Positions 1 to 14,947 of a stretch of DNA of 64,000 bases are shown piece by piece. The translations under genes were made by a program, and so were the position numbers. How positions within the stretch are numbered: the stretch's first letter is position 1; every line of letters starts with the position of its first letter. The notes below the pieces were generated by a model, which made no database searches, was not told the origin of the DNA, and saw nothing but the letters and a program-made list of their open reading frames with translations. The stretch comes from Pseudoxanthomonas japonensis (GTDB taxonomy: Bacteria > Pseudomonadota > Gammaproteobacteria > Xanthomonadales > Xanthomonadaceae), in the NCBI RefSeq assembly GCF_010093445.1, contig NZ_PDWW01000011.1:1-64000 (forward strand). Direction: 5' to 3'.

Positions 1-66
1 CTGCCAGCGATCCCACATCAGTGCCTTCTCGGTGTCGGTGTAGTAGAGCCTCTTCCTGCGCTTCAT
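1..66 (-). CDS. IS30-type transposase, N-terminal 22 residues (cut by window)
   Basis: Reading leftward from an ATG at 66, the 22 visible codons encode a basic N-terminus containing YYTDTEKALMWDRWQ. This matches the start of IS30-family DDE transposases, where it leads into the helix-turn-helix that binds the IS ends. An AGGAG ribosome binding site lies a few bases upstream (about 74-80 on this strand). The rest of the gene is outside the window, so integrity cannot be judged. It reads away from the decayed LysR/SDR pair and is a likely agent of that decay. Family assignment rests on the motif alone. Confidence 0.75.
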   Translation of the reverse strand, partial: MKRRKRLYYTDTEKALMWDRWQ

Positions 67-118
67 TCGCAACACTCCTGCTGCCTATGCAGCTATCCGT
101 GTGTTGCGTCGATCATAT
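1..118 (-). mobile_element. End of an IS30-like insertion sequence
   Basis: The transposase start is followed outward by about 50 bp of noncoding DNA holding, on the minus strand, ATGATCGACGCAACAC. This resembles the GACGCAACA-type terminal inverted repeats common in IS30-family elements. The exact IS boundary and any target duplication cannot be set because the other end is not visible; the right edge given is approximate. Confidence 0.5.
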
Positions 119-123
119 GAATC

Positions 124-176
124 CGCGGTCAGAAGCGGACATCGCCCAACACCTGAATTGGGTCGGAAGCTGACAT
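124..176. repeat. Two degenerate copies of the GGCCAGAAGCGGACAT repeat
   Basis: GGTCAGAAGCGGACAT at 128-143 differs by one base from GGCCAGAAGCGGACAT at 4361-4376. GGTCGGAAGCTGACAT at 161-176 is a second, more diverged copy. They lie between the IS end and the LysR remnant. The same repeat family appears at 4351-4397 and 7568-7591. Function unknown. Confidence 0.5.
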
Positions 177-205
177 CAAGGAAGTCGATCAGCTCTTGCA
201 ACCAA

Positions 206-826
206 TCAGCGGGGGCTTGCTGGGATTGGAGCGTCTTTACCTTCTAGGTCACGATCCAGCAGGCAATCGATGAATGCACGTAGCGCCGGCAGCAGGTAGC
301 GGCGGCTCGAGTAATGGAGGTACAGGCCAGGCACGGTCGGCGACCAGTCGGCCAGGACGCGTTTCAGCCGTCCGTCGCGCAAGGCCTCGGCGATGTCGTC
401 GTCGTTGTAGGCGTAGAGGATGCCGAGCCCCTGCAGCGCGGCGGGCAAGATGATGTCCTGGTGGTTCGAAATCACCCGGCCCTCGCCGAAGACCTCGACC
501 GTCTTGCCCTTCTTCGCGAACGACCAGCCCGCGATCTTGCCGCTGCCGGGGAAGCGCCAGTTGATGCACGCATGGCGATCCAAGTCGGCCGGCGTCTTTG
601 GTTCGCCATGCTGCGCGAGATACTCGGGCGAGGCCACCGCCAGCAGTTCGATGTCCGGCGTCAGCCGCACTGCCACCATGTCCTTCTGCAGGCGGCCGCC
701 CACGCGGATGCCGGCATCGAAGCCTTCGCCGGCGATGTCGCTCAGCGCGTCGTCGATCACGATGTCGAGCACGACATCGGGATTTGCTTTTGCGAAACGG
801 CCCAGCCGCGGCGCGTGCGCTCGTAC
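206..826 (-). pseudogene. LysR-type regulator, 5' end deleted (effector-binding domain only)
   Basis: The open frame encodes the C-terminal effector-binding half of a LysR-family regulator: the typical APRLGRFAKANPDVVLDI start of the domain, then DDALSDIAGEGFDAGIRVG and ALQGLGILY. Upstream the frame runs into a stop at 827-829, only about 45 bp before the divergent dehydrogenase start. The winged helix-turn-helix and linker, normally about 100 residues, are therefore missing, together with the usual divergent promoter. An internal GTG at 770-772 could start a 188-residue fragment, but it would have no DNA-binding domain. LysR genes divergent from short-chain dehydrogenases are a common arrangement, so this was probably once the local regulator. 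An IS30 end lies about 100 bp beyond its 3' end. Confidence 0.8.
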
Positions 827-873
827 CTACCGCCTTCGCCACGGCCTCGTCCATGTCGCATAGCATCGGCGCC

Positions 874-1645
874 ATGAGCTTCGATCTCTCCCTGGCGGGC
901 AAGCGCGTTCTGGTCACCGGCGGCACGCGCGGCGTCGGCGGCGCCGTCGTCGAACTGCTCTCTTCGCTGCAGGCACGCATCGTGGCGACCGCGCTGTCGG
1001 CACCGAAGCAGCCCATCGACGGCGTGCACTACGTGGCCGCCAACCTGGTCACCGCCGAGGGCGTCCGCGCCGCGACGGAGGCAGCGCAGCACCATCTCGG
1101 CGGCGTCGACATCCTCATCAACGTGGTGGGCGGCTCGTCGGCGCCCTTGGGCGGCTTCGCGAAACTGGACGATGGCGAGTGGGCGAAGGCGCTCGACCTC
1201 AACCTGATGTCGGCCGTGCGCATGGACCGCGCCCTGCTGCCGGCGATGCTCGCGCAGGGGTCCGGCGTGATCCTGCACGTGACCTCGATCCAGCGCCTGC
1301 TGCCGCTGCACGATTCCACGATTGCCTACGCCGCCGCGAAGGCCGCGTTGTCGACCTACAGCAAGGCGCTGTCGAAGGAAGTCACGCCGCAGGGCGTGCG
1401 CGTGGTCCGCGTGTCGCCGGGCTGGATCGAGACCGAAGCCTCGATCGATTTCCTCGGCGACATCGCGGCCAACGCCGGCACGGATTACGAAGGCGCCAAG
1501 CAGATGGTCATGAACGCGCTGGGCGGAATTCCCGTCGGGCGACCGGCCAAGCCCTCCGAGGTCGCCGACCTCATCGCGTTCCTGGTCTCGCCCCGCGCCG
1601 CGTCCATCTCGGGGTCGGAACGGCGGCACCGTGCCCACGGCGTAA
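874..1645 (+). pseudogene. Short-chain dehydrogenase/reductase with 3' frameshift
   Basis: This is a classical SDR: the NAD(P)-binding TGGTRGVGGA motif near residue 12, an NVVGG motif, and a Ser...Tyr-x3-Lys catalytic set (VTSIQ ... AYAAAK). Start chosen at ATG 874 (MSFDLSLAGKRVLVTGG); an in-frame ATG at 853 is also possible. The normal C-terminus of such SDRs ends GTEYVIDGGTVPT. Here the frame reads ISGSE up to 1620, and then NGGTVPTA plus a TAA at 1643-1645 continues in another frame. About 11 bases appear to be missing at 1620/1621. In the shifted frame the stop is lost and the protein reads on, without any stop, into the hydrolase at 1837. Catalytic residues are upstream of the lesion, so residual function is possible but unlikely. 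Confidence 0.75.
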
Positions 1646-1836
1646 GCGCCGCCGATGGCCTCCCTGCCCGCCGGCACCGCGGCGGGCAGACCCGGCAGGG
1701 CGCACGGCAGGAACGTACGATCGATCAAGTTTTCAGGACGTTACGTGCCTTATGGTTCCGGATACGCCGGCAAAGTACCCCTGCCGGCCAACGCCGCACC
1801 CCGAACGCCACCCACCACTGCCCCGAGGACACGACC

Positions 1837-2619
1837 ATGTTCAAGCTCATCCCCGCCCTGCTCGCCGCCGCCCTGGCCGCCAGCCTGTCCCCCGCCGTCC
1901 ACGCCGCCGAGTCCGCCCGCGACAGCGGTGCAGTGAAGAACGTGGTGCTGGTACACGGCGCGTTCGCCGACGGCGCCGGCTGGCGCCCGGTGTACGACGA
2001 CCTGACCGCACGCGGCTATCGCGTGTCCATCGTGCAGAACCCGCTGACCTCGCTCGCCGACGATGTCGCCGCGACCAGGCGCGTGCTCGACCGCCAGGAC
2101 GGTCCGGCCATCCTGGTCGGACATTCGTGGGGCGGCACGGTGATCACCGAAGCCGGCGTGCACGACAAGGTGGCCGGCCTGGTCTATGTGTCGGCGCTGG
2201 CGCCGGACGCAGGCGAGACCACGGCGCAGCAGTACACGGGCTTCGCGCCGACGCCTGAGTTCGTCATCGACACCAGCGCCGATGGGTTCGGCTTCATCGC
2301 CCCGGCGAAGTTCAAGGCCGGCTTCGCGCACGACACGACGGATGCGGACGCGGCGTTCCTGCGCGATTCGCAGGTGCCGATCAACATGGCGTCGTTCGGC
2401 ACCGTGCTGACGCACGCGGCGTGGCGCAGCAAGCCCAGCTGGGCGGTGATCGCCATCGAGGACAAGGCTTTCGACCAGGCCATGCTCATCCACATGGCCG
2501 AGCGCATCAACGCGCGCATCACCAAGGTCTCCGCCAGCCACGCGGTCTTCATGACGCAGCCGAAGGTGGTCGCTGACACGATCGACCGCGCAGCGAAGGA
2601 TGCGGCGCAGGCGAAGTAA
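1837..2619 (+). CDS. Secreted alpha/beta hydrolase
   Basis: A 260-residue alpha/beta hydrolase with an N-terminal signal peptide (hydrophobic core at residues 4-20, cleavage likely after AVHA), so probably periplasmic. It shows the oxyanion-side VLVHGAFADGAGW segment, the nucleophile elbow GHSWGG (about residue 91) and a late SASHAVFMTQP supplying the catalytic His. This resembles the pyrethroid hydrolase/EstC-like or AB hydrolase-6 group; the substrate is unknown. GAGGAC about 7 bases before the ATG is a plausible ribosome binding site. Because of the frameshift in the gene upstream, this reading frame is also open from the dehydrogenase into the hydrolase, so a fusion polypeptide could be made in addition to the free enzyme. 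Confidence 0.8.
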   Translation: MFKLIPALLAAALAASLSPAVHAAESARDSGAVKNVVLVHGAFADGAGWRPVYDDLTARGYRVSIVQNPLTSLADDVAATRRVLDRQDGPAILVGHSWGGTVITEAGVHDKVAGLVYVSALAPDAGETTAQQYTGFAPTPEFVIDTSADGFGFIAPAKFKAGFAHDTTDADAAFLRDSQVPINMASFGTVLTHAAWRSKPSWAVIAIEDKAFDQAMLIHMAERINARITKVSASHAVFMTQPKVVADTIDRAAKDAAQAK

Positions 2620-2750
2620 GCGCCGCTGGGACGCGACGGCATCTGCGGCCGTCGCGTCCGATATCTCTCCCCCTGAATTGCCCTTCCCCACGACAGGTGG
2701 CGCAACCCGCGCTGCCTGAAGGCCCCACGTCGCCCGGAGTTTCTGTCACC

Positions 2751-4337
2751 ATGCCCACGTCCTCTCCCACCGTCCCCGCCTACGCCACCGACCTGCAACA
2801 TCCGGGGCGCTACGACTTCATCGTCTGCGGCGCGGGTCCTGCCGGCTGCGCCCTTGCCGGCAGGCTCGCGGAAAATCCTGCCGTGCGCGTACTGCTGATC
2901 GAGGCAGGCGGCGCCGACGAGCTGCCGGAGATTCTCGATCCTACGCAGTGGCCATCGAACCTCGGCTCCGATCGCGACTGGGCATTTGTCGCCGAGCCCA
3001 ATCAGCATCTGCATGGCCGTGCCATTCCACTGAACATGGGCAAGGTGGTGGGCGGCGGCTCCAGCATCAACGTGATGGTGTGGGCACGCGGTCACCAGAG
3101 CGACTGGGATCACTTCGCCGAGGAAGCCGGCGACGGTGCTTGGGGCTATCGTGCGGTGCTCGACATCTACAAGCGCATCGAAGACTGGCGAGGGATGCCC
3201 GATCCCATCCGCCGTGGCACCGGCGGACCGGTGCATGTGGAAACGCCACCGCATCCACAGCCAGTGGCCATCGCCATGGTCGAGGCCGCGAAAGCCCTGG
3301 GCATGCCGACCTTCGACAGCCCGAACGGCGTGATGATGGAAGGCCGCGGTGGCGTTGCACTCAACGACCTGATCGTGAAGGCCGGCCGGCGCTCTTCAAT
3401 ATTTCGCTCCTACATCTTCCCGAAGCTGGGGCAGCCGAACCTGACGGTGATGATCAATGCACAGGTGAGCAAGCTCGTGTTCGAAGGCACCACCGTCGTC
3501 GGCGTTGACGTGATGCAGAACGGCCGCCGTACGCGCATCACCGCCGAGCGCGAGGTGATCCTGTCGATGGGCGCGATCAATACGCCCAAGCTGCTGATGC
3601 AATCCGGCATCGGTCCGGAAGACGAACTGCAGTCACATGGCATTCCGGTGATTCAGTCTCTGCCGGGCGTCGGACGGAACCACCAGGACCACGTCTCGTT
3701 CGGCTGCCTGTTCGAGGCGAATGCGCCAGTCGGCGTGGGTAATGGCGGATCGGAGGCCACGCTCTACTGGAAGACGGATGCTGCGCTCACCTCGCCAGAC
3801 GTCTTCCACTGTCAACTGGAGTTTCCGGTACCGACACCGGAAACGGCGCATCGTGGCGTGCCCGAGCACGGCTGGATGACGTTCGCCGGGTTGTCGCACC
3901 CCAAGAGCCGCGGCTCTCTGCACCTCACGGGTGCCGATGTCAGCGCACCCGTCCGTATCGTAGCGAACACGCTATCGCACCCCGACGATCTGCGCGATGC
4001 CATGGCGACCATCGCGCTGGCCCAGGAGATGGCGCACGCCTCACCGTTCAAGCGCTTGCTGAAGCGCGAAGCCATGCCTGGAAACCTGGCAAGGTCCGAC
4101 CTAAAAGCGTATCTCCGCGACGCGGCTGTAACGTTCTGGCACCAGGCCTGCACGGCCAAGATGGGACGCGATGCGATGTCGGTCGTCAACGGCCAGCTGC
4201 AGGTCTACGGCATTGAGCGACTGCGGATCGCGGATGCGTCGATCATGCCCAGCATGCCGAGCGGCAACACCATGGCGCCGTGCGTCGTTATCGGCGAGCG
4301 CGCTGCGGAAATCATCAAGCAGACGCACGGGATCTGA
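2751..4337 (+). CDS. GMC-family FAD oxidoreductase (choline dehydrogenase-like)
   Basis: A 528-residue protein with the FAD-binding CGAGPAGCALAGRL near residue 25, the GMC signature around GGGSSINVMVWARGH, the second signature SMGAINTPKLLMQSGIGP, and the C-terminal FWHQACTAKMG plus SGNTMAPC segment carrying the catalytic His and Asn. GMC enzymes oxidise alcohols (choline, glucose, aryl or aliphatic alcohols); which one is not readable here. There is no signal peptide, so it is probably cytoplasmic. ATG 2751 is preferred over the in-frame GTG at 2697 because conserved sequence starts about 20 residues after it. It stands alone, with a repeat hairpin immediately downstream. Confidence 0.88.
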   Translation: MPTSSPTVPAYATDLQHPGRYDFIVCGAGPAGCALAGRLAENPAVRVLLIEAGGADELPEILDPTQWPSNLGSDRDWAFVAEPNQHLHGRAIPLNMGKVVGGGSSINVMVWARGHQSDWDHFAEEAGDGAWGYRAVLDIYKRIEDWRGMPDPIRRGTGGPVHVETPPHPQPVAIAMVEAAKALGMPTFDSPNGVMMEGRGGVALNDLIVKAGRRSSIFRSYIFPKLGQPNLTVMINAQVSKLVFEGTTVVGVDVMQNGRRTRITAEREVILSMGAINTPKLLMQSGIGPEDELQSHGIPVIQSLPGVGRNHQDHVSFGCLFEANAPVGVGNGGSEATLYWKTDAALTSPDVFHCQLEFPVPTPETAHRGVPEHGWMTFAGLSHPKSRGSLHLTGADVSAPVRIVANTLSHPDDLRDAMATIALAQEMAHASPFKRLLKREAMPGNLARSDLKAYLRDAAVTFWHQACTAKMGRDAMSVVNGQLQVYGIERLRIADASIMPSMPSGNTMAPCVVIGERAAEIIKQTHGI

Positions 4338-4350
4338 ATGCTGATGTTAC

Positions 4351-4397
4351 GTCCGCTTCCGGCCAGAAGCGGACATGATGACCCGTCCGCTTCTTGT
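4351..4397. repeat. Palindromic intergenic repeat plus half-copy
   Basis: GTCCGCTTC (4351-4359) and GAAGCGGAC (4366-4374) form a perfect 9-bp stem with a 6-base CGGCCA loop. A further CGTCCGCTTCT half-copy follows at 4384-4394. The unit lies between the GMC oxidoreductase and the convergent cytochrome b561 gene. Related copies occur at 7568-7591 and 128-176. There is no T-run, so a terminator role is unproven. Confidence 0.7.
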
Positions 4398-4457
4398 CCC
4401 TGCCTGCATTGGGGCTCAATGTAAGCGCCCAATGCGATATCGGCCAGGTCCACCGCG

Positions 4458-5033
4458 TCAATTCGGCTCGATGTCGGATCGAGCGGGCGGCAGTTCTGCG
4501 ACGGCTCCGCTCCGCGCCATTGATCCAAACACGCCGTCACGACGTACCCACGCGTGATATAGCGCGGCGGTCAGGTGTAGCAGCACCAGCGCAAACAAGG
4601 CGAAGCCCAACGCCCCGTGCGCCTCCCTAAGCCAGGTATAGAGCGCGGGATCCTGTGGAAAGAGCGGCGGCAACCGCAGTGTGCCGACCATATGTACGGG
4701 ATATCCGCCCGCCGACAACATGGCCCATCCAAGCAGTGGCATCGCTAGCATCAAGGAATACAACAGCCAGTGCGACGCCTTTGCAGCGACTGCCTGCAGT
4801 CGCGGCAGGTCTGCAGGCAGGGGCGGTGGCGGACTACGCCACCGATGTACAAGCCTGAGAAGCGCCAACAGCAGGATAGCGATGCCAAGCGGTCGATGCA
4901 GATCGATCAGTGCCGGCCGCAGCGACAACGATGAGACCATGCCGACGCCGATGAACAGCATCACCACGATCAACAGCGCCATGCACCAATGAAGCAAGCG
5001 CGCCAGTCCATCAAAATGTCCATGCCGGTTCAT
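4458..5033 (-). CDS. Cytochrome b561-type di-haem membrane protein
   Basis: A 191-residue integral membrane protein with four transmembrane segments and the histidine pattern of bacterial cytochrome b561 (YodB/CybB type): LARLLHWCMAL in helix 1, DLHRPLGI in helix 2, ASHWLLYSL in helix 3, and AHGALGF ... LLHLTAALYH in helix 4. It would pass electrons between quinol and a periplasmic partner. Its ATG overlaps the stop of the catalase-like gene by 4 bases (ATGA), so the two are translationally coupled and probably form one redox unit, with the cytochrome as membrane electron carrier for the haem peroxidase. Confidence 0.88.
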   Translation of the reverse strand: MNRHGHFDGLARLLHWCMALLIVVMLFIGVGMVSSLSLRPALIDLHRPLGIAILLLALLRLVHRWRSPPPPLPADLPRLQAVAAKASHWLLYSLMLAMPLLGWAMLSAGGYPVHMVGTLRLPPLFPQDPALYTWLREAHGALGFALFALVLLHLTAALYHAWVRRDGVFGSMARSGAVAELPPARSDIEPN

Positions 5034-6133
5034 CGTGCGGCCTCCTGCACGGTGGCCCCGGTCGCCTCAGGCGCCTGCCCATGCGCGATCTCTCGCTCGC
5101 GCCGGTTGAACGAGACCGAATACGCCGCCGCCCGGGCAGCCAGAATTGGATCATCCGACAAGGCAATACCGCCAGGCACCACGGTCGGATCGTAGTTCAC
5201 ATCGCGGCATGCACCCGTTGCCTGCGGTTGGCTGCTTTCCAGCACCAGCGTGCCTGCGATGTAGTTGGGTCGGTCCTCGGGCCAGGCGCGCGAAGGATCC
5301 TCAATGGGATCCCCCGATTTGGCCTCGGTGACTACCAGATGCCAGCGCAGCGGCCCCTGCGACAATCGCGTCTGCAGGTCTTCCCGCAGGTAGTCGGGAT
5401 CGGCGTGCTGCCGCTCGGCCTCGCTGAGCGGTTCGAACGCCGCCAAGGGCTGCATCGACCAACGTACAAAGCGAACACGGCCTTGCGCATCAATGAAGCG
5501 GAACGCGTTGACGCCGTTGTAGGTCGTGTTGGCCCAACTGCTGGACCAGGGTGCGGACTTGGCCCACGCCTGGAAGCGCTTGGCTTCGGGGTACTGCGCC
5601 ACGAATGCGGCCATCTTCGCCGGATCCGGCTTGCCCGTCGCCGGATCGGGGCGCGACGCCAGTAGCTGGGCGTGGAAGCCGGCCGGCGTAGCCACCGCGA
5701 AGAATGGGAAGCTGTTCATCGCGGTGCGCCACTCTTGCCCATCATCCGTCTTCAGCAGCAGCGCCAAGCTGCGCACCCGGGCCTGTGCATCCAGGGCATA
5801 TGGATCTCCCCCCGCGATCGACAGGCGGCCGGATACCTCAGTGCGAGGCTGGCTGAAGATGCGCGCGCGCGACAATGCGGCCGCCGGCTCCGATGGTTCG
5901 AAGTACCCTGCTACGCATACGCCCTTGCTGTGGGCCCGACGAAACCCCGGATAGGCCTTGCCACCCTCGATGGCGTCCACCAGCCGCGGTGCGGTCAGGC
6001 GCTTGGGCCCAATCCACCCTGCAGTCCATGCGAATGCGCCCGCTAGCACCATGACAATGGCGGCAATGGCCGTCAAGGCAAGCCACGGGACGCGGGTCCG
6101 GGATGGGTGGGTTGCTTCGTGAGGTGTCGACAT
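5030..6133 (-). CDS. Membrane-anchored catalase-related peroxidase (SrpA-like)
   Basis: A 367-residue protein of the catalase-related (SrpA-like) family, shorter than true catalases. An N-terminal signal anchor spans about residues 15-37. The haem-distal His segment is RAHSKGVCVAGYFEPS, followed by the conserved NSFPFFAVATPAGFHAQLLAS and WANTTYNGVNAFRF. The late RAAAY sequence fits the R-x3-Y proximal haem motif. Family members are mostly haem peroxidases of the periplasm. ATG 6133 is preferred over ATG 6148 because GGAG sits about 6 bases upstream of it. It is cotranscribed with the cytochrome b561 gene and divergent from an ECF sigma gene; a matching ECF-type promoter at 6165-6189 suggests direct control by that sigma factor. 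Confidence 0.85.
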   Translation of the reverse strand: MSTPHEATHPSRTRVPWLALTAIAAIVMVLAGAFAWTAGWIGPKRLTAPRLVDAIEGGKAYPGFRRAHSKGVCVAGYFEPSEPAAALSRARIFSQPRTEVSGRLSIAGGDPYALDAQARVRSLALLLKTDDGQEWRTAMNSFPFFAVATPAGFHAQLLASRPDPATGKPDPAKMAAFVAQYPEAKRFQAWAKSAPWSSSWANTTYNGVNAFRFIDAQGRVRFVRWSMQPLAAFEPLSEAERQHADPDYLREDLQTRLSQGPLRWHLVVTEAKSGDPIEDPSRAWPEDRPNYIAGTLVLESSQPQATGACRDVNYDPTVVPGGIALSDDPILAARAAAYSVSFNRREREIAHGQAPEATGATVQEAAR

Positions 6134-6164
6134 GGATGGCTCCGGCATCGTGCAATGACCGTAT

Positions 6165-6189
6165 GACGCCCGGGCGCGGGATTTATTTC
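6165..6189 (-). promoter_or_regulatory. Candidate ECF-sigma promoter for the catalase/cytochrome unit
   Basis: On the minus strand GAAAT (6189-6185) is followed after exactly 16 bases by CGTC (6168-6165). CGTC is a typical ECF -10 core, and the spacing equals that of the divergent promoter at 6216-6240. It lies 31 bp upstream of the chosen catalase start. Inferred from pattern only. Confidence 0.5.
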
Positions 6190-6215
6190 ACATCCGCGAC
6201 ATCTTTCGATTCCGA

Positions 6216-6242
6216 GGAATAATCGGGCTACCCGCACGTCTC
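6216..6242 (+). promoter_or_regulatory. Candidate autoregulatory ECF-sigma promoter
   Basis: GGAAT (6216-6220) and CGTC (6237-6240) are separated by 16 bases, matching the GGAA(C/T)-N16-CGTC layout of many ECF-dependent promoters. It lies about 30 bp before the sigma gene, as expected for autoregulation. Confidence 0.6.
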
Positions 6243-6271
6243 ACCTTAGACCTGCCCCGTTCACGCGACCC

Positions 6272-6796
6272 ATGACCGCTTCATTGCCTCCGCTGGATGA
6301 CGACAGCCTGCGAGACCTGATTCCTCGCCTGCGCAGGTTCGCGCGCTCGCTGACCCAGGATCCAGTCGCTGCGGACGACCTGGTCCAGGCGACGCTGGAG
6401 CGAGCGCTTACACACGGCGCTGAGCGGACGAAGGAAGCGGCGCTGCAATCGTGGCTGTTCTCCGTGCTCTACCGAAAATTCGTCGATGAGCAGCGGCGCG
6501 TAACCCGTTGGAGGCGCATCGCATGGCTATTCGCAGCCGAGGAGGAGGCACAGGCGGCCACGCCCGAACAGGTTTTTGCCGCCCGCACCTCGCTGGCCGG
6601 CTTCTCCCGCCTGACGGTGGAACAGCGCGCCTTGCTGATGCTGGTGAGCGTCGAGGACATGGGCTATCGCGAGGCCGCCGAGACGCTTGGCATACCCATT
6701 GGCACTGTCATGTCCCGTTTGTCGCGGGCGCGGCAGGCACTGCGTGCCATGCAGGAGGACGGACCCCCTGCCCCATCGTTGAGAGTCATGAAATGA
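6272..6796 (+). CDS. ECF-type RNA polymerase sigma factor
   Basis: A 174-residue protein with sigma region 2 at about residues 17-82 (DLVQATLERAL, SWLFSVLYRKFVDEQRR) and region 4 at about 108-160 (LTVEQRALLMLVSVEDMGY, then the helix-turn-helix EAAETLGIPIGTVMSRLSRAR). No region 1 or 3, as normal for ECF factors. Its stop overlaps the ATG of the downstream anti-sigma gene (ATGA). It is divergent from a catalase-like/cytochrome b unit with paired candidate ECF promoters between them. This organisation suggests a self-contained response to peroxide or another oxidative signal (inference). Confidence 0.92.
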   Translation: MTASLPPLDDDSLRDLIPRLRRFARSLTQDPVAADDLVQATLERALTHGAERTKEAALQSWLFSVLYRKFVDEQRRVTRWRRIAWLFAAEEEAQAATPEQVFAARTSLAGFSRLTVEQRALLMLVSVEDMGYREAAETLGIPIGTVMSRLSRARQALRAMQEDGPPAPSLRVMK

Positions 6797-7545
6797 ACAT
6801 CCAGACCACACAGCCCGAACCGGATGAGAGTGAACTCCATGCTTACGTGGATGGTCAGCTCGAGCCGGCGCGTCGCGAGGCCGTCGAATGCTGGCTGGAC
6901 AGCCATCCTGAGCGTGCCCGCCAGATAGCCGACTGGAAGCGCGATGCCGGGCACCTGCGCGCACTGCACGCGCATCCGGAGCAGTGGGCGGCGAACGCGG
7001 CACTGGAGCCTCTACGGATACGGCGGCGCCTGCATGCAAGTCGCCGGCACCGCATGGGCATCGCTGCCTCCCTGATACTGGCGCTTGGATTGGGGGCTGG
7101 TGTGGGTTGGTGGGCACGTGACCTGCAGCCAGTGCCCATGCCCATGGCCGACGCGGTAGCGGCCTATCGCCAGTTCGCCGATGCCGATGCGCCTGCCATG
7201 GACTTCGATGCCAGTCGGAGCGCGGACCTGCAACGCTGGCTGCAGCGGCATTTCGGCAAAGTTGGCCGTGTCCCCGACCTCAAGCCGGCGGGCTACCGGC
7301 TGATGGGTGGACGCGTGCTGTCCACCGAACAGGGCACTGCCGCCATGCTGGTCTATCAAGATGGATCAGGTGCCCGTGTGGGGTTCTATCTCCGCCCGCG
7401 CGGCAAGCTGAAGGGTACAGGTCAGCGCCGCGACGGCGACCTGCTGGCTCAGTACTGGTCACATCAGAACACCAGCTTCGCTCTGGTTAGCGAGGTCGCA
7501 GATACAGCTGCTTTGCGACTTCCACACTTGTTAGACAACGGCTGA
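6793..7545 (+). CDS. Membrane anti-sigma factor
   Basis: A 250-residue protein with an N-terminal sigma-binding region (DESELHAYVDGQLEPARR), one transmembrane segment at about residues 88-107, and a periplasmic C-terminal domain rich in Arg/Gly/Tyr. The zinc-binding H-x3-C-x2-C signature of ZAS-type anti-sigmas is absent. It overlaps the sigma gene by 4 bases, so the pair is coupled. It would hold the sigma factor at the membrane until an envelope signal. The last residues (LRLPHLLDNG) run into a short inverted repeat and a TGT motif that may mark the left edge of the Tn7-like element, so the natural C-terminus may have been altered. Confidence 0.85.
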   Translation: MNIQTTQPEPDESELHAYVDGQLEPARREAVECWLDSHPERARQIADWKRDAGHLRALHAHPEQWAANAALEPLRIRRRLHASRRHRMGIAASLILALGLGAGVGWWARDLQPVPMPMADAVAAYRQFADADAPAMDFDASRSADLQRWLQRHFGKVGRVPDLKPAGYRLMGGRVLSTEQGTAAMLVYQDGSGARVGFYLRPRGKLKGTGQRRDGDLLAQYWSHQNTSFALVSEVADTAALRLPHLLDNG

Positions 7546-8050
7546 GTTTTCTAACACAAACTAGAGAGTCCGCTATCGGCCACAAGCGGACATCTGCCAA
7601 ACCTCTAAACTCGACCGGCTCGTGAGTCATTATCGGACAGAGCTAGATGCCAGACGCCTAGCCTTCCTTGGAGGTAAGTGGAGCGCTCTCTAACCTTATA
7701 AATTTCGTCAGCAAGCGATCAATTCAGCTAGCTACCTGATTTGGCTAGGTTAGGCATGAACCCTACGCATTCTTGCCAAAGGGCCTACTGACGGCTTTTG
7801 ATGAGTGACCGTGTCTCAATGGCATTAATTAGCAATACGATTTGGCGGGCTGACACGATTAATCCATGTCTAGGCTCGAGGCGGCCCCCGCGGGAGCGCA
7901 AGTTATGCTCGTGGTACATGCCGGGCTGCTAAGCAGAGCGAATTCGGCCCATGCAGTGTCCCCTTTGACGAGTGCGCATCATGACGAACGACGAGCAGAT
8001 GGATCTTTGGCTGTGGAGTCAGGGTGTAGGCCAATGGCATGCGGGTCGCG
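7546..8050. other. 505-bp gap without a convincing gene; probable left edge of the Tn7-like element
   Basis: No open frame here looks like protein. The stretch is A+T-richer than the flank to its left. It starts with a short inverted repeat (TGTTAGA at 7529-7535 and TCTAACA at 7549-7555) straddling the anti-sigma stop, then the palindromic repeat at 7568-7591. TTTGGC occurs at about 7742, 7842 and 8006 and might be degenerate transposase-binding sites, but the match to the right-end repeats is weak. Confidence 0.5.
7568..7591. repeat. Palindromic intergenic repeat copy
   Basis: GTCCGCT (7568-7574) pairs with AGCGGAC (7585-7591) around a central CGGCCA-containing loop. Same family as 4351-4374, with the same GCGGACAT tail. 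It lies just after the anti-sigma gene. Confidence 0.6.
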
Positions 8051-8320
8051 TTAAGAGATGGGGGGGTCACCGAGCAGCTTGATTAGCTGTTCGGTTTCCT
8101 TCCTCAGGTACTTCGCTGTGATCTCACCCAATGTGGGAATGAAGGTGGCCCACCAGTCAGGCCACTCGCATTCGCTTCGCTCGCGTCCTGTCATTACCCG
8201 GGAGAACCTGCGCGACGTCGCGAGCGTACGTGCGGCAAACCACAGATACGATCTGCGCCAAGCGACGGTGCTGGTGTTCGTGACGCATCGATCGCTCGTT
8301 GGCTTTGTTAGAACGTTCAT
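8051..8320 (-). CDS. Small protein of unknown function, element-borne
   Basis: An 89-residue protein, not recognised. The N-terminal half is basic (RRSYLWFAAR, RRFSRVMTGR) and the C-terminal half is Trp- and Glu-rich (EWPDWWATFIPTLGEITAKY). No signal peptide or membrane helix. Its ATG lies 4 bases after the stop that the upstream gene would have without its frameshift (TGA CGAG ATG), so the two were built as one tightly coupled operon. They are divergent from tnsAB. A role in the element (regulation, immunity or cargo) is inference from position only. Confidence 0.45.
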   Translation of the reverse strand: MNVLTKPTSDRCVTNTSTVAWRRSYLWFAARTLATSRRFSRVMTGRERSECEWPDWWATFIPTLGEITAKYLRKETEQLIKLLGDPPIS

Positions 8321-8324
8321 CTCG

Positions 8325-9217
8325 TCAGATCAAGGCCAAAAGCGCGGTGGCGCACTTGACCGCATCAACATCAGCTCTCGAGTTTTCTCGCTCAAGAAGC
8401 GCCAGGTAAATGGTTGATTTCTCACCGAAGCCCTTCGAGTATTTGTAAGCGAGATCAAGCGACGCTTGGACCACCTAAAGTGCCTCCATCTTCCCATCAC
8501 CTGCTGAATCACAGCTCCGCGCTCTGAAAGAATGCGACTCCCTTCACAGTCATCGAATATGCCTACTTCGGAACCAGGCAAAATCGCATGTAACGGGAGG
8601 AGTTGCTCCGGCATCAGGTCTAGCAACCGATCTAGCACATCGATGAACTCAATCTCGTAGCGCTGCATCATAGGACTATGCGCCATTGGACCTATCATCG
8701 ACAGCAAACGATCAGTTCGCGACAGCAATGTACGTACATCTCGACCACCCAACGCGCGCCGCCACTCACAGAGTGACCACCAGAATTCTGCTGTGGTCAC
8801 GTCCTCACCGACCTTGGTAGAGAGCCTGATAGCTGGCTCCTTATCTAGTCGTCTCGGATGCAGTGCTTCCCAAGGCATGGCCGTCACGAAACCAAGCGCT
8901 ACCTCTACTGACAACGCCTCCATTCGATCACGTGTGAGTCTGCGCTGGCCGGATTCATATAGCCAGAACTGCCGCCCAGCGTTACGGGGATGGATACCCC
9001 AAGCGAGGGCTGCCTTGTGAACTAGGTCCTCTCTACCACCCACGATAGTCTCCGCCGCGCCCAAGATAACGTGCGTCGCTAAGACGTCTGCCAAGTCGCT
9101 GTCGGGCTGACCTCTCCTTCTACGCGGATATCTAACCAGGTCTGAAATCCGGACATAGTCAAGAACTGCGGGATACGTGTACGTCGAAGAGGCGCGACTT
9201 GCAGCAGACGTATGCAT
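8325..9217 (-). pseudogene. Unknown protein divergent from tnsAB, with one-base 3' frameshift
   Basis: The open frame runs from ATG 9217 with protein-like sequence up to RWRHFRW, then continues as an implausible Arg/Ser-rich tail to a stop at 8330-8332. The neighbouring frame instead reads VQASLDLAYKYSKGFGEKS and on to ALLALI before TGA 8325-8327, which looks like the true C-terminus. One missing base in the CC at about 8470-8472 (GGG to GG in the coding sense) explains the switch. The restored product would be about 297 residues. WLYESGQRRLTRDRMEAL resembles the end of an XRE-like helix-turn-helix, so a regulator is possible but not shown. No other domain recognised. The shift may be a real mutation or a sequencing error. 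Confidence 0.55.
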
Positions 9218-9284
9218 AGACCTGTCCTCGCATGTGTCGTGTTCGGATTATCCCCCCTTCTTTTGGGAATAAAAGGACGCGCCC

Positions 9285-9305
9285 GGGTCACACCTTGTGG
9301 GACCC
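9285..9305. promoter_or_regulatory. Imperfect palindrome in the divergent promoter region (candidate operator)
   Basis: GGGTC (9285-9289) and GACCC (9301-9305) flank an inner CAC/GTG pair around a CTT centre, giving a 21-bp near-palindrome with one mismatch per arm. It sits between the divergent unknown gene and tnsAB, where an operator controlling the transposase would be expected. Function inferred from position and symmetry only. Confidence 0.35.
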
Positions 9306-9371
9306 TGATGCAGCTTCACGACCACAGCACAGGCGAATCTGGGTCGCGTGTGGCCCGAAGGGTGAATCTGT

Positions 9372-11855
9372 ATGGCTGCGCTTCCACTCGATGCTGTCAC
9401 GCGTCAAGATCTACTGGAAAAGCTTGGGCTGAATCAACAGGCGGTTTCACATCTCGACCTTTCGCCCGAAGGCATCTCGTATGTCGTCGAGACCGCGATT
9501 TCTCCTCCGGCCAAGAAGGTTGGCAGGAGGCGGCGCCGCAACCTAATACTTGATGTACCGCTTAAGAGCATCCCAGGCGTCGTTCTCCAAGCCGAATCGA
9601 TGACTGGCGAGTTCAACTTCCTAGTCGAACTTGATCGACGCCCTGATCTCACCGCGGTCTTTGACCAGCCGATAACCATCAAGGTCTGCATCACCGACAG
9701 CAGAGGTCGCAGAACCCGAACAACTTACACGGCCGACTACCTGGTGATCTACAGCCGCAGCGTATGTGTCTACGAGATAAAGGCCGACTCGGAACTCGAA
9801 AGGCTGGTCCGAGAGCGCCCCAGGGATTGGATCGTGCAGGATAGTGAGTATCACTATGTCCCAGCATCAAAGCATTTCAGCTCAATGGGAATTGATCATG
9901 TCGTCGTCCCGATTAGCTCATTGAGCTCGCTTCGGGCAGACAATCTTCGACTTCTCACAAGCTCTCGAGAGGCGCCGGACACGAAGAGATACCGCTGGAC
10001 CAGGAAAGCGATTTTGACCCTGCTAGAGCATGAGTCAACCCTGCGCATGTCCGACATCCTTGAACGGCTCGGGATGCCGGATGGAACCCCAGTCCTACAA
10101 CTCTTGGACGCTGAGCAGATCTTTGCAGACCTAGACCGTGTAACTCTGGCGGACCCCAATAGCGTCTGGTTATCAACAAGCTTGGAGCTCGCCAAGATTG
10201 CGCAAGAGTCGTGCAGTAGGCTCGCGACTAATCTCCGATCTGACGAACTCGGTACCGATGAAGTAGTTGACCCTCGTTATGAGCTAGAGGTCGCCAGCCG
10301 TCTCGCCCTTGTCCAGGGAACAACGCGTACAAATAGCAATGGCAAGAATGTCTCAGATCGATCCATACGGCGCTATCGGAAGGCCTTTCAGGATGCCAAT
10401 GGCGACCCTCTCAGCCTTACGCCGCGCTGGAGTAACTGCGGAAATCGCGACCCTCTTATCGGAATAGTTCATTTGTCGTTCCTTGAATCCATTATTCGTG
10501 CAGGCAAAAGCGACCGCCACCACACATCCATTAGCGCATGTTTCTTTGCCTATCAGACAGCATTTCCTGAAGCAAGACGCCAACTCGAGTTCTTCGATGA
10601 GCACCCCGTGTCCCGTTCAACTTTCTACACGTACTGGGATCGCATAGCTCTCAACAATGAAGACTCTTTCAAGAAGGGCGGGAGGCGACTCCGCAACGAG
10701 CAGTCTGACTCGTTTGATCCCGCAAAGAGGACGATCCTCGCTACTCGGCCGTTTGCAGTTGCCCATATCGACCACTGGAAGACAGACCTTCATCTTGTTG
10801 TTGGATACATCAACGGAGCAAAGATAACAAAGCGAGCATGGCTTACCGCCATGGTCGATTCATTCAGTGGAGAAGTGCTGGCAATCTGGCTGTCATTCGC
10901 TGACCCGAGCAAGAAATCCTGCACAATGGTAATCCGAGACTGCGCAAGACGTCATGGCAGATTGCCGGAGATGGTCATTGTCGACGGCGGAAGTGACTTT
11001 AGGAGCAGTCACTTCTTTGTGATGCTTGCTTCTTTGAAGGTTGTCCGATGTGAGCGGCCACCTGAAGACCCGCGCTTCGGACAGCAGGTTGAGCGTCTCT
11101 TCAGAGACTTTAAAGAACGATTCGCTCGCGGCCTTCCTGGCTTCGGCATCAGCATTGAGCGCTCTCGTGCCGTTTCAGGCGCGTTCAAGGCGGCGGCGGG
11201 CTCAACCCTTACGCTCCTGGACGCTTTCGAAGCCCTTGAGGCGTTCGTGTTTCAAGGCTACAACAATGGCTCTAAACCCGGAGAAGTATCGTCACGCTAC
11301 GCTCTGCGCCACAAGGCGGAGCGCACCTATCCACATGGCGGCCGGAGAATCGCTTGGGATATGAGGTTCCTGATCGCCACCTCAGTTGAATCTCCCGACG
11401 CAGGTTACAAGCTATGGACTGGGCGCGGCATCCATGTTCACGGTAAGTGGTATAGCTCTCCGAAGTTGTTGGCGTATCGCGGCTACAAGAAGGACCTTTC
11501 CGTTAGGATCGAGCCCTATGCCGATTCCGTTATCTACGTTTGCATTGAAGGGAAATGGCTTGAGTGCAGGAACTCCGACTCTCCTTTACAGCTAGCCATG
11601 TCCGAAACAAGCTTGCTTTTCCGGACTGCGGAACGACACGATCTTTCGGCACTTCGTGTTGAACTTACAAACGACATGAATCGTTGCGTCGCTGAAATAG
11701 TCAACGGCAAACTTCACGAAATTGCCGAACGCAAGGAATCTAACTCCACCCGACCTACCTCCAATGACAACCAGACGGATGACGTTCGGGATTCGTCCAC
11801 CTTCGTGCCATTCAACTTCGACGACGTCGAACCGTACGAGAACGAGACGTTATAG
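9372..11855 (+). CDS. tnsAB: TnsA-TnsB fusion transposase of a Tn7-like element
   Basis: A single 827-residue chain joins the two Tn7 nucleases. Residues about 55-190 form a TnsA-like restriction-endonuclease fold with E80 (TGEFN), D122 (TADYLVIY) and E135-x-K137 (VYEIKAD), the set that cuts the 5' strands. About 205-275 is a TnsA C-terminal/winged-helix-like linker. Residues about 325-440 hold DNA-binding segments (SDRSIRRYRKAF). The DDE core is D467 (AHIDHWKTDL), D538 (VDGGSDF) and E574 (QQVERLF), with 35 residues between the last two, as usual for this retroviral-integrase-like superfamily; it makes the 3' cuts and joins. A beta-barrel-like region and an acidic tail follow. In Tn7 these are two genes; natural fusions are known in some Tn7-like lineages. 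tnsC starts directly after its stop. All catalytic residues are present, so it looks functional. G+C is visibly lower than in neighbouring core genes. Confidence 0.92.
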   Translation: MAALPLDAVTRQDLLEKLGLNQQAVSHLDLSPEGISYVVETAISPPAKKVGRRRRRNLILDVPLKSIPGVVLQAESMTGEFNFLVELDRRPDLTAVFDQPITIKVCITDSRGRRTRTTYTADYLVIYSRSVCVYEIKADSELERLVRERPRDWIVQDSEYHYVPASKHFSSMGIDHVVVPISSLSSLRADNLRLLTSSREAPDTKRYRWTRKAILTLLEHESTLRMSDILERLGMPDGTPVLQLLDAEQIFADLDRVTLADPNSVWLSTSLELAKIAQESCSRLATNLRSDELGTDEVVDPRYELEVASRLALVQGTTRTNSNGKNVSDRSIRRYRKAFQDANGDPLSLTPRWSNCGNRDPLIGIVHLSFLESIIRAGKSDRHHTSISACFFAYQTAFPEARRQLEFFDEHPVSRSTFYTYWDRIALNNEDSFKKGGRRLRNEQSDSFDPAKRTILATRPFAVAHIDHWKTDLHLVVGYINGAKITKRAWLTAMVDSFSGEVLAIWLSFADPSKKSCTMVIRDCARRHGRLPEMVIVDGGSDFRSSHFFVMLASLKVVRCERPPEDPRFGQQVERLFRDFKERFARGLPGFGISIERSRAVSGAFKAAAGSTLTLLDAFEALEAFVFQGYNNGSKPGEVSSRYALRHKAERTYPHGGRRIAWDMRFLIATSVESPDAGYKLWTGRGIHVHGKWYSSPKLLAYRGYKKDLSVRIEPYADSVIYVCIEGKWLECRNSDSPLQLAMSETSLLFRTAERHDLSALRVELTNDMNRCVAEIVNGKLHEIAERKESNSTRPTSNDNQTDDVRDSSTFVPFNFDDVEPYENETL

Positions 11856-12923
11856 ATGAATCGTTTGTCGCGAGTCACTAACGGCGTAATCAAGCATCGA
11901 CTTCTTGAAAGAGCAAGGGATATCTTCGTTCCACTGTGTCGTGATGCGTCCGATGGACTCGTACTCCTGCTTCTTGGCCCGACGCAGTCCGGAAAGTCCA
12001 TCATATTTCACGAGATAGTTACGGCATTGAAGGATTCCTTCCAAGATAGTCGTCCCGGTGCAATCCCCATAGTGAGCCTACAGATTGAAACTGTCAGCGA
12101 GGGACGCGCGAAGGCGAAGTGGATCGGAATCGAGTTGCTGAAGTCGCTTGAACATCCGATATACAAGCATATCGGAGGTTTAGATGAGAACGAGCACTAC
12201 TTTCCTTCGCGAGGCCGGGACGAGTCCACCATTCGCATCGCGCTGAAGGAAGCGCTTAGTCATAGGTTCACTCGTCGCACCTGCCTAGATGAAGCGCACC
12301 TTCTTACCCGGACCAAGGACCCAGAACTCCGCGCCGCAATTCTTGAGTCCATCAAGTCAACATGCGCGATAGATCGAACTCTCATAGCGAGTGGCGGATA
12401 CGAGATGGCATACAAAGGATTATTCGACTCCTCCCACTTTTGCGGACGTGTATTAAGCTTTAATTTCGGCCACTACGGTGCATGCAATCCCGACGATCTC
12501 GAGTCCTGGGCACGGATTCTAAAGACATACAGCGGGAAGCTTGAACTGAGTCCGAAATCTCTACTCCTAGACGAAGCCGTCAATCTCTTGCACTGGAACA
12601 ACGGAACGGTCGGACTGCTTGACAAGCACCTCTGGTCGTGCAGCGTGCAGGCTCGTGCGCGCCATATGTACATAGACAGAGCGCTCCTTAGGGCATGTGC
12701 CCCTCCCGAGCGGGAGCGAAAGGCTATCGCTGAGGACATCCGAAGGGGCGAGGAAGCACTCCAATCCAGCTCCCAGTTCTCCATTCCTAGTTCAGGGAAG
12801 TCACGCCAAGAAGAAGAGGGGCCTGGCGACAAGGCGGATAACTCCAGTCAAAGAAACACGCCGTTCCAACGTGCGCCAAACCGCAATGCTGCCGCGGAGG
12901 TTGTTGTTCATGACGACGACTGA
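11856..12923 (+). CDS. tnsC: TnsC/TniB-like AAA+ transposition regulator
   Basis: A 355-residue ATPase with Walker A GPTQSGKS (residues 41-48) and Walker B TCLDEAHLL (D145-E146). Known TnsC proteins form ATP-dependent filaments on target DNA and link the target selector to the transposase. The C-terminal 60 residues are hydrophilic, low in complexity and end in an acidic DDD, probably the TnsAB- or TniQ-contacting tail. The ATG abuts the tnsAB stop, and the 3' end overlaps tniQ by 14 bases, so the three form a translationally coupled operon. Length is intermediate between Tn5053 TniB (about 300) and Tn7 TnsC (about 555). Confidence 0.9.
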   Translation: MNRLSRVTNGVIKHRLLERARDIFVPLCRDASDGLVLLLLGPTQSGKSIIFHEIVTALKDSFQDSRPGAIPIVSLQIETVSEGRAKAKWIGIELLKSLEHPIYKHIGGLDENEHYFPSRGRDESTIRIALKEALSHRFTRRTCLDEAHLLTRTKDPELRAAILESIKSTCAIDRTLIASGGYEMAYKGLFDSSHFCGRVLSFNFGHYGACNPDDLESWARILKTYSGKLELSPKSLLLDEAVNLLHWNNGTVGLLDKHLWSCSVQARARHMYIDRALLRACAPPERERKAIAEDIRRGEEALQSSSQFSIPSSGKSRQEEEGPGDKADNSSQRNTPFQRAPNRNAAAEVVVHDDD

Positions 12924-14286
12924 GTACTTGCCGATATCGCCGCTAGGCCAAGGCACGGTCGAGATTGAGGCTTTCGGTTCATTGTTCTGCAGAATGGCTG
13001 TATCCCACAGCGTAACCATCCATGCCCTGTCCAAACATCTCCGCAGCTGGTGGCTACGCCAGAATCCGGGCGTTTTCGAGCTCAGCATAGGCGGCATCAA
13101 TGGCAAGAATCCAATGTTCTGCGGCACCGGGCTGATCGTTCAATCATTCGTAGATCTCTTAAGCGAGGCTGTAGGTTGTCCTACGCTCAAACGAACAACG
13201 TTCTTGGCGCTCACGCCAGTACTAAGCTTGCAAGGGCATGGAATAGTTCGAGAGGGTCGCGCATGGTGTCCCGCTTGCTTGGAGGAGGCCATTAGCAGCC
13301 AGAACCAGTTCTATGATCGACTGATTTGGGCTATTCCCGTCATCAAGCGATGCACAATTCACCGAATATCCCTTCAAACCCTGTGCCCGCGGTGTGGGAG
13401 CCGCCAGGCGCGGTACCATCATCTTGGACAAATGGCCTTGTGCTTCAGATGCAAAGGATCTTTACGCCAAGCTTCGTCCGGATGGCAAACGGCGCTCGAT
13501 ACGACAATGTATGAGAAGGAATGCTTCGAGTTGGTTGAGGCGATCTCTACTGGGAACCTTGAAACTGTTGTTCCCGATGCCTATAGCATGCTCCTCAAGG
13601 AGGGCATCAAGTCCAGACCTGAGATCTACGATGCTTTCGGCCGTAAGAGTCACATCTCGATGGCGGTGACTCGAATTACTCTGCGTACCTCTGGCCGCCC
13701 ACACTTGCGCACGCTAATGAAGCGCTGCGTTTTGCTGGGTGTCAGCCCGGTTGATCTGATCAGGGATCCAATCGGGACGTTCAACTCAGTTGACCTTCTT
13801 GATCTGGCGGCTGCAACGGTGCCAGAAGATCGAAAACCAAAGCGGCCTGAGCACCTTACAAAAATCGCCGAGAAGTGGCTTAAAGCAGAACTCGAGAAGA
13901 CCGACTTCGATTCGATGGTTTCTCTAGCTTTTATCGCGAAGCAGCTTGGGGTTTCTAAAGGCTTTCTACGCTATAGGCTACGTGAGCTTTGCGCACGGTA
14001 CGCTCGTCATCGCAAGCAATATGGATATCTTAAGCACGTCGAGAGAATTCGCCTCGCTGCGGACTACCTCCTCAACGGCCCTGTTTTGAGCTACCCCTCT
14101 GCCGAGTATCCAAGTCATGATCACCTTGTCGCCGCCGCCGTCAGCGAGACTGGCGTCGGAGTGCGGGTTGCTCGGCTTGCTGTCGAAGCAGCCCTTAAGA
14201 AAGTGACAAGCGATTGGAATTACAGGCGGTACCGCGAGGCCAACCGTCTCTTTCGAGTTCCTCGACCAACGATAGCGGCTGAGTAG
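12910..14286 (+). CDS. tniQ: TniQ/TnsD-family target-selection protein
   Basis: A 458-residue protein with the TniQ N-terminal domain (about residues 5-185). Zinc-ligand pairs are C120-x2-C123 (WCPACLEE), C148-x2-H151 (KRCTIHR), C159-x2-C162 (LCPRCG) and C178-x2-C181 (LCFRCKG). A longer C-terminal part contains helix-turn-helix-like segments (IAKQLGVSKGFLRYRLREL) that would read a target sequence. ATG 12910 was chosen because the conserved start (LPISPLGQGTVEIEAFGSLF) follows it; upstream in-frame codons overlap tnsC. In Tn7-like elements this protein recognises the attachment site. The gene ends 585 bp before a tRNA-Ile gene, the suspected target. No TnsE, Cas genes or CRISPR are seen nearby. 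Confidence 0.9.
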   Translation: MTTTEYLPISPLGQGTVEIEAFGSLFCRMAVSHSVTIHALSKHLRSWWLRQNPGVFELSIGGINGKNPMFCGTGLIVQSFVDLLSEAVGCPTLKRTTFLALTPVLSLQGHGIVREGRAWCPACLEEAISSQNQFYDRLIWAIPVIKRCTIHRISLQTLCPRCGSRQARYHHLGQMALCFRCKGSLRQASSGWQTALDTTMYEKECFELVEAISTGNLETVVPDAYSMLLKEGIKSRPEIYDAFGRKSHISMAVTRITLRTSGRPHLRTLMKRCVLLGVSPVDLIRDPIGTFNSVDLLDLAAATVPEDRKPKRPEHLTKIAEKWLKAELEKTDFDSMVSLAFIAKQLGVSKGFLRYRLRELCARYARHRKQYGYLKHVERIRLAADYLLNGPVLSYPSAEYPSHDHLVAAAVSETGVGVRVARLAVEAALKKVTSDWNYRRYREANRLFRVPRPTIAAE

Positions 14287-14770: not shown

Positions 14771-14833
14771 TGCCCCAAGCGGCCAAACTTGTCGGACATC
14801 CATCAAGGTTTGTCCCAAATGGCCAAACTTGGC
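14771..14833. repeat. Two 23-bp direct repeats with 40-bp period (candidate transposase-binding sites)
   Basis: Units at 14771-14793 and 14811-14833 agree at 19 of 23 positions and share the core GGCCAAACTTG (14781-14791 and 14821-14831). Repeated sites of this size next to an element end are typical of TnsB-binding arrays. If the element ends at 14798 the second copy is outside it, possibly left by an earlier insertion; otherwise the true end lies between 14834 and the tRNA. Confidence 0.6.
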
Positions 14834-14845
14834 TGGATCGCGCAG

Positions 14846-14865
14846 AATCCGGATACTGCCGGATT
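14846..14865 (-). terminator. Hairpin downstream of the tRNA
   Basis: AATCCGG (14846-14852) and CCGGATT (14859-14865) form a 7-bp stem with a 6-base loop, beginning 6 bases beyond the tRNA 3' end in the direction of transcription. No strong U-run follows. Probably the native tRNA transcript end, which would put the insertion point beyond it. Confidence 0.45.
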
Positions 14866-14871
14866 GCTTTA

Positions 14872-14947
14872 TGGTGGGCCCACCAGGACTCGAACCTGGA
14901 ACCAAAGGATTATGAGTCCTCTGCTCTAACCATTGAGCTATAGGCCC
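14872..14947 (-). tRNA. tRNA-Ile (CAT anticodon, lysidine type)
   Basis: A 76-base cloverleaf with encoded CCA. The acceptor stem GGGCCTA pairs with TGGGCCC. The anticodon stem GAGGA/TCCTT carries loop CTCATAA (anticodon CAT), and the T arm contains GGTTCGAGTCC. The CAT anticodon within GACTCATAATC matches the isoleucine-2 tRNA (ileX/ileY type), whose C34 is converted to lysidine by TilS to read AUA, rather than a methionine tRNA. Its 3' end faces the Tn7-like element, consistent with use as an attachment site. Confidence 0.92.

Follow-up and report, generated by a model that had tools for sequence, protein, structure and literature searches.

The stretch of Pseudoxanthomonas japonensis DNA analysed here (the window; 64,000 nucleotides, positions 1 to 64,000 of contig NZ_PDWW01000011.1) holds an operon of a fused tnsAB gene, tnsC and tniQ close to a tRNA-Ile(CAT) gene, which raises the question of what kind of element this is and how it selects its site. 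Our analysis points to a Tn7-like transposon with a one-chain TnsAB, no CRISPR (clustered regularly interspaced short palindromic repeats) component found, and a TniQ that would bind the tRNA-Ile(CAT) gene, a reading to which we assign a probability of about 0.86. The genes, both ends, the target-site duplication and the recurrence at the same tRNA can be read in the sequence itself, as can the uninterrupted site of a relative; homing of TniQ on the tRNA gene is the most likely reading.

The initial annotation had proposed an 827-residue TnsA-TnsB chain, TnsC and a 458-residue TniQ, and these were recovered, with 355 amino acids for TnsC, the ATG of tniQ at 12910 and an overlap of 14 bp between tnsC and tniQ (Table 1). 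In a phmmer search of the PDB, the top match of TnsAB was 9bw1 (E = 2.3e-56) in two stretches, one covering the TnsA part (residues 22-265 against chain residues 6-249, 55 bits) and one the TnsB part (residues 430-736 against 480-787, 137 bits), and the second-best match was Tn6677 TnsB (E = 3e-10). PADLOC returned TnsB (E = 2.5e-11), and rve fell slightly below the Pfam cut-off. The alignment of 12 fused TnsABs (the window, locus L079 and ten from the genus) showed that E75, E80, D122, K137, D467, D538 and E574 are invariant; these are presumed catalytic positions, as in Tn7 TnsA and TnsB. The N-terminal match to 9bw1 together with invariant E80, D122 and K137 indicates a TnsA nuclease, and PADLOC, the PDB TnsB chains and invariant D467, D538 and E574 indicate a DDE transposase of TnsB type, in agreement with the earlier claim that one chain carries both sites. 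For the proposed motif E135-x-K137, K137 held, whereas position 135 is E or Q among the 12 proteins. The 9bw1 chain has A opposite E80 in the phmmer alignment.

TnsC gave weak matches by every measure: AAA_22 (E = 4.8e-4) and TniB (E = 0.029) both lay below the Pfam cut-off, and in the PDB the TnsC common to 8fcu, 8v32 and 9bw1 was reached at E = 0.0029, equal to the value for an AAA+ protein of 9g0f. Its identity is 70.5% to the protein of relative G013 and 77.7% to that of L079, and these weak matches plus the operon position suggest an AAA+ ATPase. TniQ matched PF06527 above the Pfam cut-off and PADLOC TniQ_IB at E = 2.2e-17, the query for Pfam, NCBIfam and PADLOC having begun at 12922, four residues short; with the full 458 residues, the PDB comparison returned TniQ of 8fcu (E = 1.1e-13) and TnsD of 8v32 and 9bw1 (E = 2.1e-9). 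The best PDB matches of TnsAB, TniQ and, weakly, TnsC fall in one set of entries (8fcu, 8v32 and 9bw1), consistent with the Tn7-like identity originally proposed. We take these entries to be structures of Tn7744/PmcCAST, and 9bw1 and 8v32 are presumably also the published TnsABCD structures named further below.

Table 1. Features of the element and of the adjoining DNA in the window
Feature	Position	Strand	Basis
tnsAB, fused TnsA nuclease and TnsB DDE transposase, 827 amino acids	9372..11855	+	PDB 9bw1, PADLOC TnsB, conserved residues
tnsC, probable AAA+ ATPase, 355 amino acids	11856..12923	+	weak profile and PDB matches, operon position, TnsC of relatives
tniQ (tnsD-like), TniQ zinc-ribbon N-terminus and long C-terminal extension, 458 amino acids	12910..14286	+	PF06527, PADLOC TniQ_IB, PDB
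Right-end repeat GGCCAAACTTG, likely TnsB site	14781..14791	+	one of two exact copies
Right-end repeat GGCCAAACTTG, likely TnsB site	14821..14831	+	second exact copy
Right terminal inverted repeat GGATCGCGCA, 10 bp, final element base 14844	14835..14844	+	exact inverse at G000:C40:216-225
Target-site duplication GAATC, other copy at G000:C40:211-215	14845..14849	+	flank join aligns ungapped to relatives
tRNA-Ile(CAT), attachment gene, 3' end toward element	14872..14947	-	ARAGORN, E. coli blastn
295-amino-acid open reading frame, divergent from tnsAB, possible element gene	8330..9217	-	no family
Low-GC stretch, 52-56% in 500-base steps, element-like	7546..9371		composition
High-GC block: LysR, SDR/hydrolase, GMC oxidoreductase, b561, catalase-like, ECF sigma	1..7545		60-71% GC

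The element had been predicted to end just beyond the tRNA gene, and its final base was indeed found 27 bp beyond the 3' end of tRNA-Ile(CAT). ARAGORN labels this gene tRNA-Met(CAT); because the best five of 5,982 matching records in a blastn search of 20,395 E. coli records are all annotated tRNA-Ile (81.6%), we take it as tRNA-Ile2, an identity that this comparison supports and that agrees with the initial annotation. The two exact copies of GGCCAAACTTG lie 40 bp apart, and the same array recurs in three relatives; with two mismatches allowed, the count over the whole window is at chance level. The terminal 10-mer also stands at both ends of the elements in G013 and G171, and similarity between the window and G013 runs to GGATCGCGCA and then gives way to unrelated sequence.

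The left end lies on another contig of the same genome (G000:C40), and the element thus extends beyond the operon. When the whole genome was searched for GAATCTGCGCGATCC, tolerating one mismatch, a single exact match appeared, at G000:C40:211-225, along with two one-mismatch matches, one of which is the window's own right end; C40 holds the genome's only exact copy of the 15-mer GAATC+TGCGCGATCC. The left end of the G013 element shares 98% identity with C40:216-266. We then removed the element in silico by joining C40:1-215 to the window from 14850 on. The joined flanks aligned ungapped to three genomes: to G008 at 92% identity over 125 bp, of which 26 bp lie on the left side of the junction, and to G012 and G036 with 9 bp on that side. 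The remaining alignments in a search over 39 loci all begin right of the junction. On these alignments, the insertion site is uninterrupted in G008, and also in G012 and G036, where the alignment takes in little left flank. Terminal inverted repeats, repeated putative transposase sites and a 5-bp duplication were all found, and the comparison of tRNA loci that the initial annotation had recommended defined the ends, the GAATC duplication and the uninterrupted G008 site. Other positions for the left end were considered and rejected: when the part of the window left of tnsAB was scanned for the right-end repeat and for the terminal 10-mer, matches did not exceed chance level, a boundary at about 7546 drawn from the drop in GC was given up, and a motif at 7899 resembling other Tn7-like ends was dropped.

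Relatives of TnsAB were found in 13 of 38 genus genomes at E <= 0.001, and at E <= 1e-60 in 13 of 395 family genomes and in 2 of 398 genomes across the phylum, the own genome being included in each count and the other genome of the last being G607 of the same order. A tblastn search of plasmids with TnsAB matched 47 records, none covering 80% of the query, and the best 25 of the 47 match the C-terminal (TnsB) part only, at 25-29% identity. The elements with TnsAB identity of about 70% or more are those of the window, G171 (79%), G305 (78%) and G013 (69.6-70%), and all four end 23-27 bp from the same tRNA (27 bp in the window, 24 bp in G013, and 23 and 25 bp in the others), so the proposed tRNA linkage held in 4/4. 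Complete elements could be delimited in G013 (26,640 bp, terminal 20-mers agreeing at 18/20, duplication CAAGG on both sides) and in G171 (31,267 bp, terminal 10-mers 10/10, duplication GAAAG). The ends of the four elements agree at 56-64 of 64 bases and their flanks at only 3-8 of 23-25; with matching ends in differing flanks, the four appear to have inserted separately at one target, and its constant feature is the tRNA gene, the stretch from element to tRNA being unconserved. The pattern corresponds to fixed-site insertion beside a conserved gene in all four elements. One old insertion that was inherited vertically could also have produced the tRNA linkage, and the close relatives found do belong to the same family. 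The four elements nevertheless differ in their flanks, in the adjacent 5-mers and slightly in the distance to the tRNA, the G008 site is uninterrupted, and the TnsAB reading frame is open in the 13 listed genomes; linkage by descent is already disfavoured, and we regard it as very improbable.

Beyond these four, the linkage varied. In G025, a more distant relative, a candidate element of 20,964 bp ends 20 bp from the tRNA, with terminal 20-mers agreeing at 15/20. G006 and G032 have the tRNA downstream, and the search for a duplication plus repeat did not find their ends; this search also gave chance-like matches in several loci, so only G013 (18/20) was counted as proven by it. In G190 a tRNA fragment of 47 nt lies about 12 kb downstream and the whole tRNA about 51 kb downstream, the tRNA of G022, G290 and G121 lies on another contig than TnsAB, and a search for the tRNA in G101 found none. 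Overall, relatives near 30% TnsAB identity showed mixed tRNA linkage, and those near 20% mostly had no close tRNA.

In the mechanism that we propose, TniQ would bind the tRNA-Ile(CAT) gene, TnsC would link TniQ to TnsAB sitting at the terminal repeats, and TnsAB would cleave both strands at both ends, with excision presumably of the cut-and-paste type. The element would then be inserted at a point 23-27 bp past the 3' end of the tRNA; 5 bp of target would be duplicated, and the tRNA gene would stay intact. We infer that the element is still active.

The site might be chosen by a second selector and not by TniQ itself: a DNA-binding accessory protein, or a guide RNA encoded in the unassembled part. 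Part of the element is indeed unassembled, and one source describes Tn7-like groups in which a TniQ adaptor works together with a different selector (PMC10293859). This alternative nevertheless seems unlikely to us. TniQ has 458 amino acids with a C-terminal extension, and the same source, in the part concerned with dual TniQ-TnsD loci, takes more than 400 amino acids as suggesting direct targeting (PMC10293859). PF06527 has a single match in the genome and none in 14 control genomes, and with this one match genome-wide a dual arrangement of TniQ and TnsD was not found. PF01867 (Cas1) and PF01905 (Cas7-type), matched in 9/14 and 2/14 control genomes respectively, have no match in the genome, and no direct repeats of at least 22 nt within 90 bp occur in window 1-16000 or C40. 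Neither Cascade genes nor a CRISPR array were found in a search that covered only these two Cas families and these two stretches; the earlier statement that no Cas or CRISPR is seen stands for the two families and the repeat array. PF18623 (TnsE) has no match in the genome, and likewise none in the 14 control genomes. Finally, the 130-amino-acid open reading frame after tniQ is without a homologue in 38 loci.

Several results weigh against a tRNA-directed Tn7-like transposon with a fused TnsAB. The Pfam search of TnsAB gave no TnsA family for the TnsA part, which is half of what the initial annotation had named as counting against it; on the other side stand the match of residues 22-265 to 9bw1 and the conserved residues. 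AlphaFold2 models from three-row alignments were unusable, with a mean predicted local distance difference test score of 47 for TniQ and 31 for TnsAB, and a fold search with the low-confidence TniQ model returned nothing at E <= 0.001. The duplication fails in G305, where the left terminal repeat is preceded by GCAGG and the right side reads GGGTA, and a search for GGGTA plus the repeat across the G305 genome gave no match. In G226 (45% TnsAB identity) the tRNA lies about 11 kb downstream, and ends were sought and not found. G139, a relative at about 30%, is unlinked, its tRNA being about 340 kb away on one contig, and at about 20% TnsAB identity 5/6 relatives (G030, G017, G015, G027 and G028) have no tRNA in the stretch around TnsAB. 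The left end lies on a different contig, and the interior of the element is not fully assembled. In addition, the element may be rearranged, because window 4458-7545 lies elsewhere in 24/37 other genus genomes.

This block has matches in 25/38 genus genomes, own included, and is single copy here; where block and tRNA are both listed, they are on different contigs or separated by about 96 kb or more. The interior may have been rearranged with chromosomal DNA and may be immobile as a unit, which would be compatible with our reading of the genes and ends; we consider this possible but somewhat doubtful. In its favour, the block lies directly left of the low-GC stretch, and the contig begins in the apparent start of an IS30-like transposase gene. 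Both ends, both copies of the duplication and a G013-like left-end cargo are all present, however. Window 4458-7545 may be captured cargo, a rearrangement beside the operon or an assembly error, and a look at what adjoins the sigma-factor block in five relatives did not separate cargo from rearrangement. If C40 and C2 are colinear, window 1-9371 lies inside the element; otherwise the high-GC block 1-7545 would have arrived there through rearrangement or misassembly.

To return to the tRNA-directed transposon, its closest lineage combines a shared target with a fast-diverging TniQ. The TniQ proteins of the window, L079 and L078 (the G013 contig) share 46-52% identity, and their TnsAB proteins 70-77%. 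A TnsAB tree of 24 rows placed the window, G171, G305, G013 and G226 in one clade (support 100/99); in this tree, which has no PmcCAST or CyCAST row, three Nostocaceae and one Caballeronia group together, apart from the window clade. We lean slightly toward the view that the tRNA-Ile(CAT) 3' flank is a common landing site of several fused-TnsAB lineages in the xanthomonad family, and that TniQ of the closest lineage outpaces TnsAB while the target is kept. The 3' flanks at 27 other genus sites of tRNA-Ile(CAT) mostly differ, and several have repeats that resemble other Tn7-like ends by eye. This 3' flank looks like a multi-element hotspot.

We compared the element with known systems. Like Tn7, it has TnsA, TnsB, TnsC, a selector of the TniQ family, end repeats, a 5-bp duplication and insertion beside a conserved gene; Tn7 for its part has separate TnsA and TnsB, TnsE and a glmS target. 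Tn7744/PmcCAST, a CRISPR-associated transposon (CAST) of type I-B2 from a Peltigera membranacea cyanobiont, likewise has a fused TnsAB, TnsC and a TnsD-type TniQ homing beside a tRNA. It is cyanobacterial, with Cascade and a second TniQ, whereas the window has one TniQ and no match to two Cas families, and sequence identity between the two is low, although the entries that we take to be PmcCAST are the best PDB matches. A tRNA-Val target plasmid is described for it (PMC10293859), as against tRNA-Ile(CAT) in the window. Tn7745/CyCAST (type I-D, Cyanothece PCC 7425) differs in its type I-D CRISPR-Cas system and small TniQ; the same paper reports homing with TnsAB, TnsC and TnsD, insertions falling about 30-33 nt beyond the end of tRNA-Leu (PMC10293859), compared with 23-27 bp past tRNA-Ile(CAT) in the window group. 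TnsABCD structures from a Peltigera cyanobiont type I-B CAST are described in part of another source (PMC12585508).

Fused TnsAB with tRNA homing is already established in cyanobacteria, as described in parts of two papers (PMC11406308, PMC10293859). Excerpts of the first state that I-D and I-B2 CASTs derive from a fused TnsA-TnsB subfamily, that TnsD uses different tRNA genes, and that non-CRISPR targeting systems also occur in the I-D/I-B2 fused-TnsAB branch (PMC11406308); a portion of the second marks tnsAB fusions on the Tn7-like tree (PMC10293859). The cyanobacterial non-CRISPR fused-TnsAB elements (Hsieh and Peters 2022, as described in the review PMC11406308) share the fused TnsAB and non-CRISPR targeting with the window, and tRNA sites occur in the same branch, but they belong to a different phylum. 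Among the literature titles and abstract openings listed, which leave out most subscription journals, there was no xanthomonad-family or tRNA-Ile Tn7-like element like that of the window, which is weak evidence. The novelty suggested by the initial annotation holds for the xanthomonad lineage and the tRNA-Ile2 target, together with the ends of the element and a fast-diverging TniQ that keeps one site, and not for fused TnsAB with tRNA homing as such. The element looks like a separate xanthomonad-family branch of the cyanobacterial design with its own tRNA target.

With these results, proteobacteria gain a compact Tn7-like system of the tRNA-homing type, in which TnsAB is one chain and no CRISPR part was found. 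For the window element, the two ends are defined along with the duplication and the uninterrupted site. TnsAB, TnsC and a single TniQ would form a small set for probing how TnsD-type proteins read tRNA genes, and DNA insertion at a site that spares the host gene is a possible use. If the shared landing site and the fast TniQ are true, they would offer a natural experiment on the TniQ-to-tRNA recognition code in a CRISPR-free setting, with a one-chain transposase and outside cyanobacteria.

The tRNA site would also mark a cargo hotspot with candidate defence and nicotinamide adenine dinucleotide (NAD)-related genes. Near its left end, the G013 element shares 89.6% identity with C40:416-3925; because the tns genes of the window and G013 are only about 69% identical, cargo exchange is suggested. 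The C40 cargo encodes a bifunctional nicotinamide mononucleotide adenylyltransferase/Nudix protein (NCBIfam, over cut-off), a Band_7 protein (Pfam) and one protein with weak NAD-kinase matches far below cut-off, and PADLOC gave a weak Nudix match only. The left-end module of C40 and G013 is possibly an NAD-related defence or counter-defence set. The cargo of the G013 element (L039 10682-17873) includes an HKD-Snf2-type helicase and two proteins matching the PADLOC candidate defence families PDC-M61A and PDC-M61B. For the 295-amino-acid open reading frame in the window, Pfam gave chance-level matches only (E = 0.23), NCBIfam and PADLOC gave none, and no homologue was found among the open reading frames of 38 loci.

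On the other side of the tRNA, the 5' flank (14948 to about 15095) resembles G030, G029, G032 and L079, which have a second tRNA 5' half kilobases away, with a lambda tail I-like gene between in L079. The window itself, compared over 14948-15612 with L047, L043/L044, L048 and L079, has no second tRNA 5' half. This side looks like a prophage or island ending in the same tRNA, of which the window may keep only a remnant. At the start of the contig, window 1-142 holds the apparent start of the transposase gene mentioned above, which we take to be of the IS30 family, and G019 carries DNA of 92% identity at a distance of about 1.2 kb from the same tRNA. AAGCGGACAT is repeated at window positions 133, 4367 and 7584 and at C40 position 4009, in palindrome-like surroundings, and one of these copies lies near the junction of the high-GC block and the low-GC part of the element.

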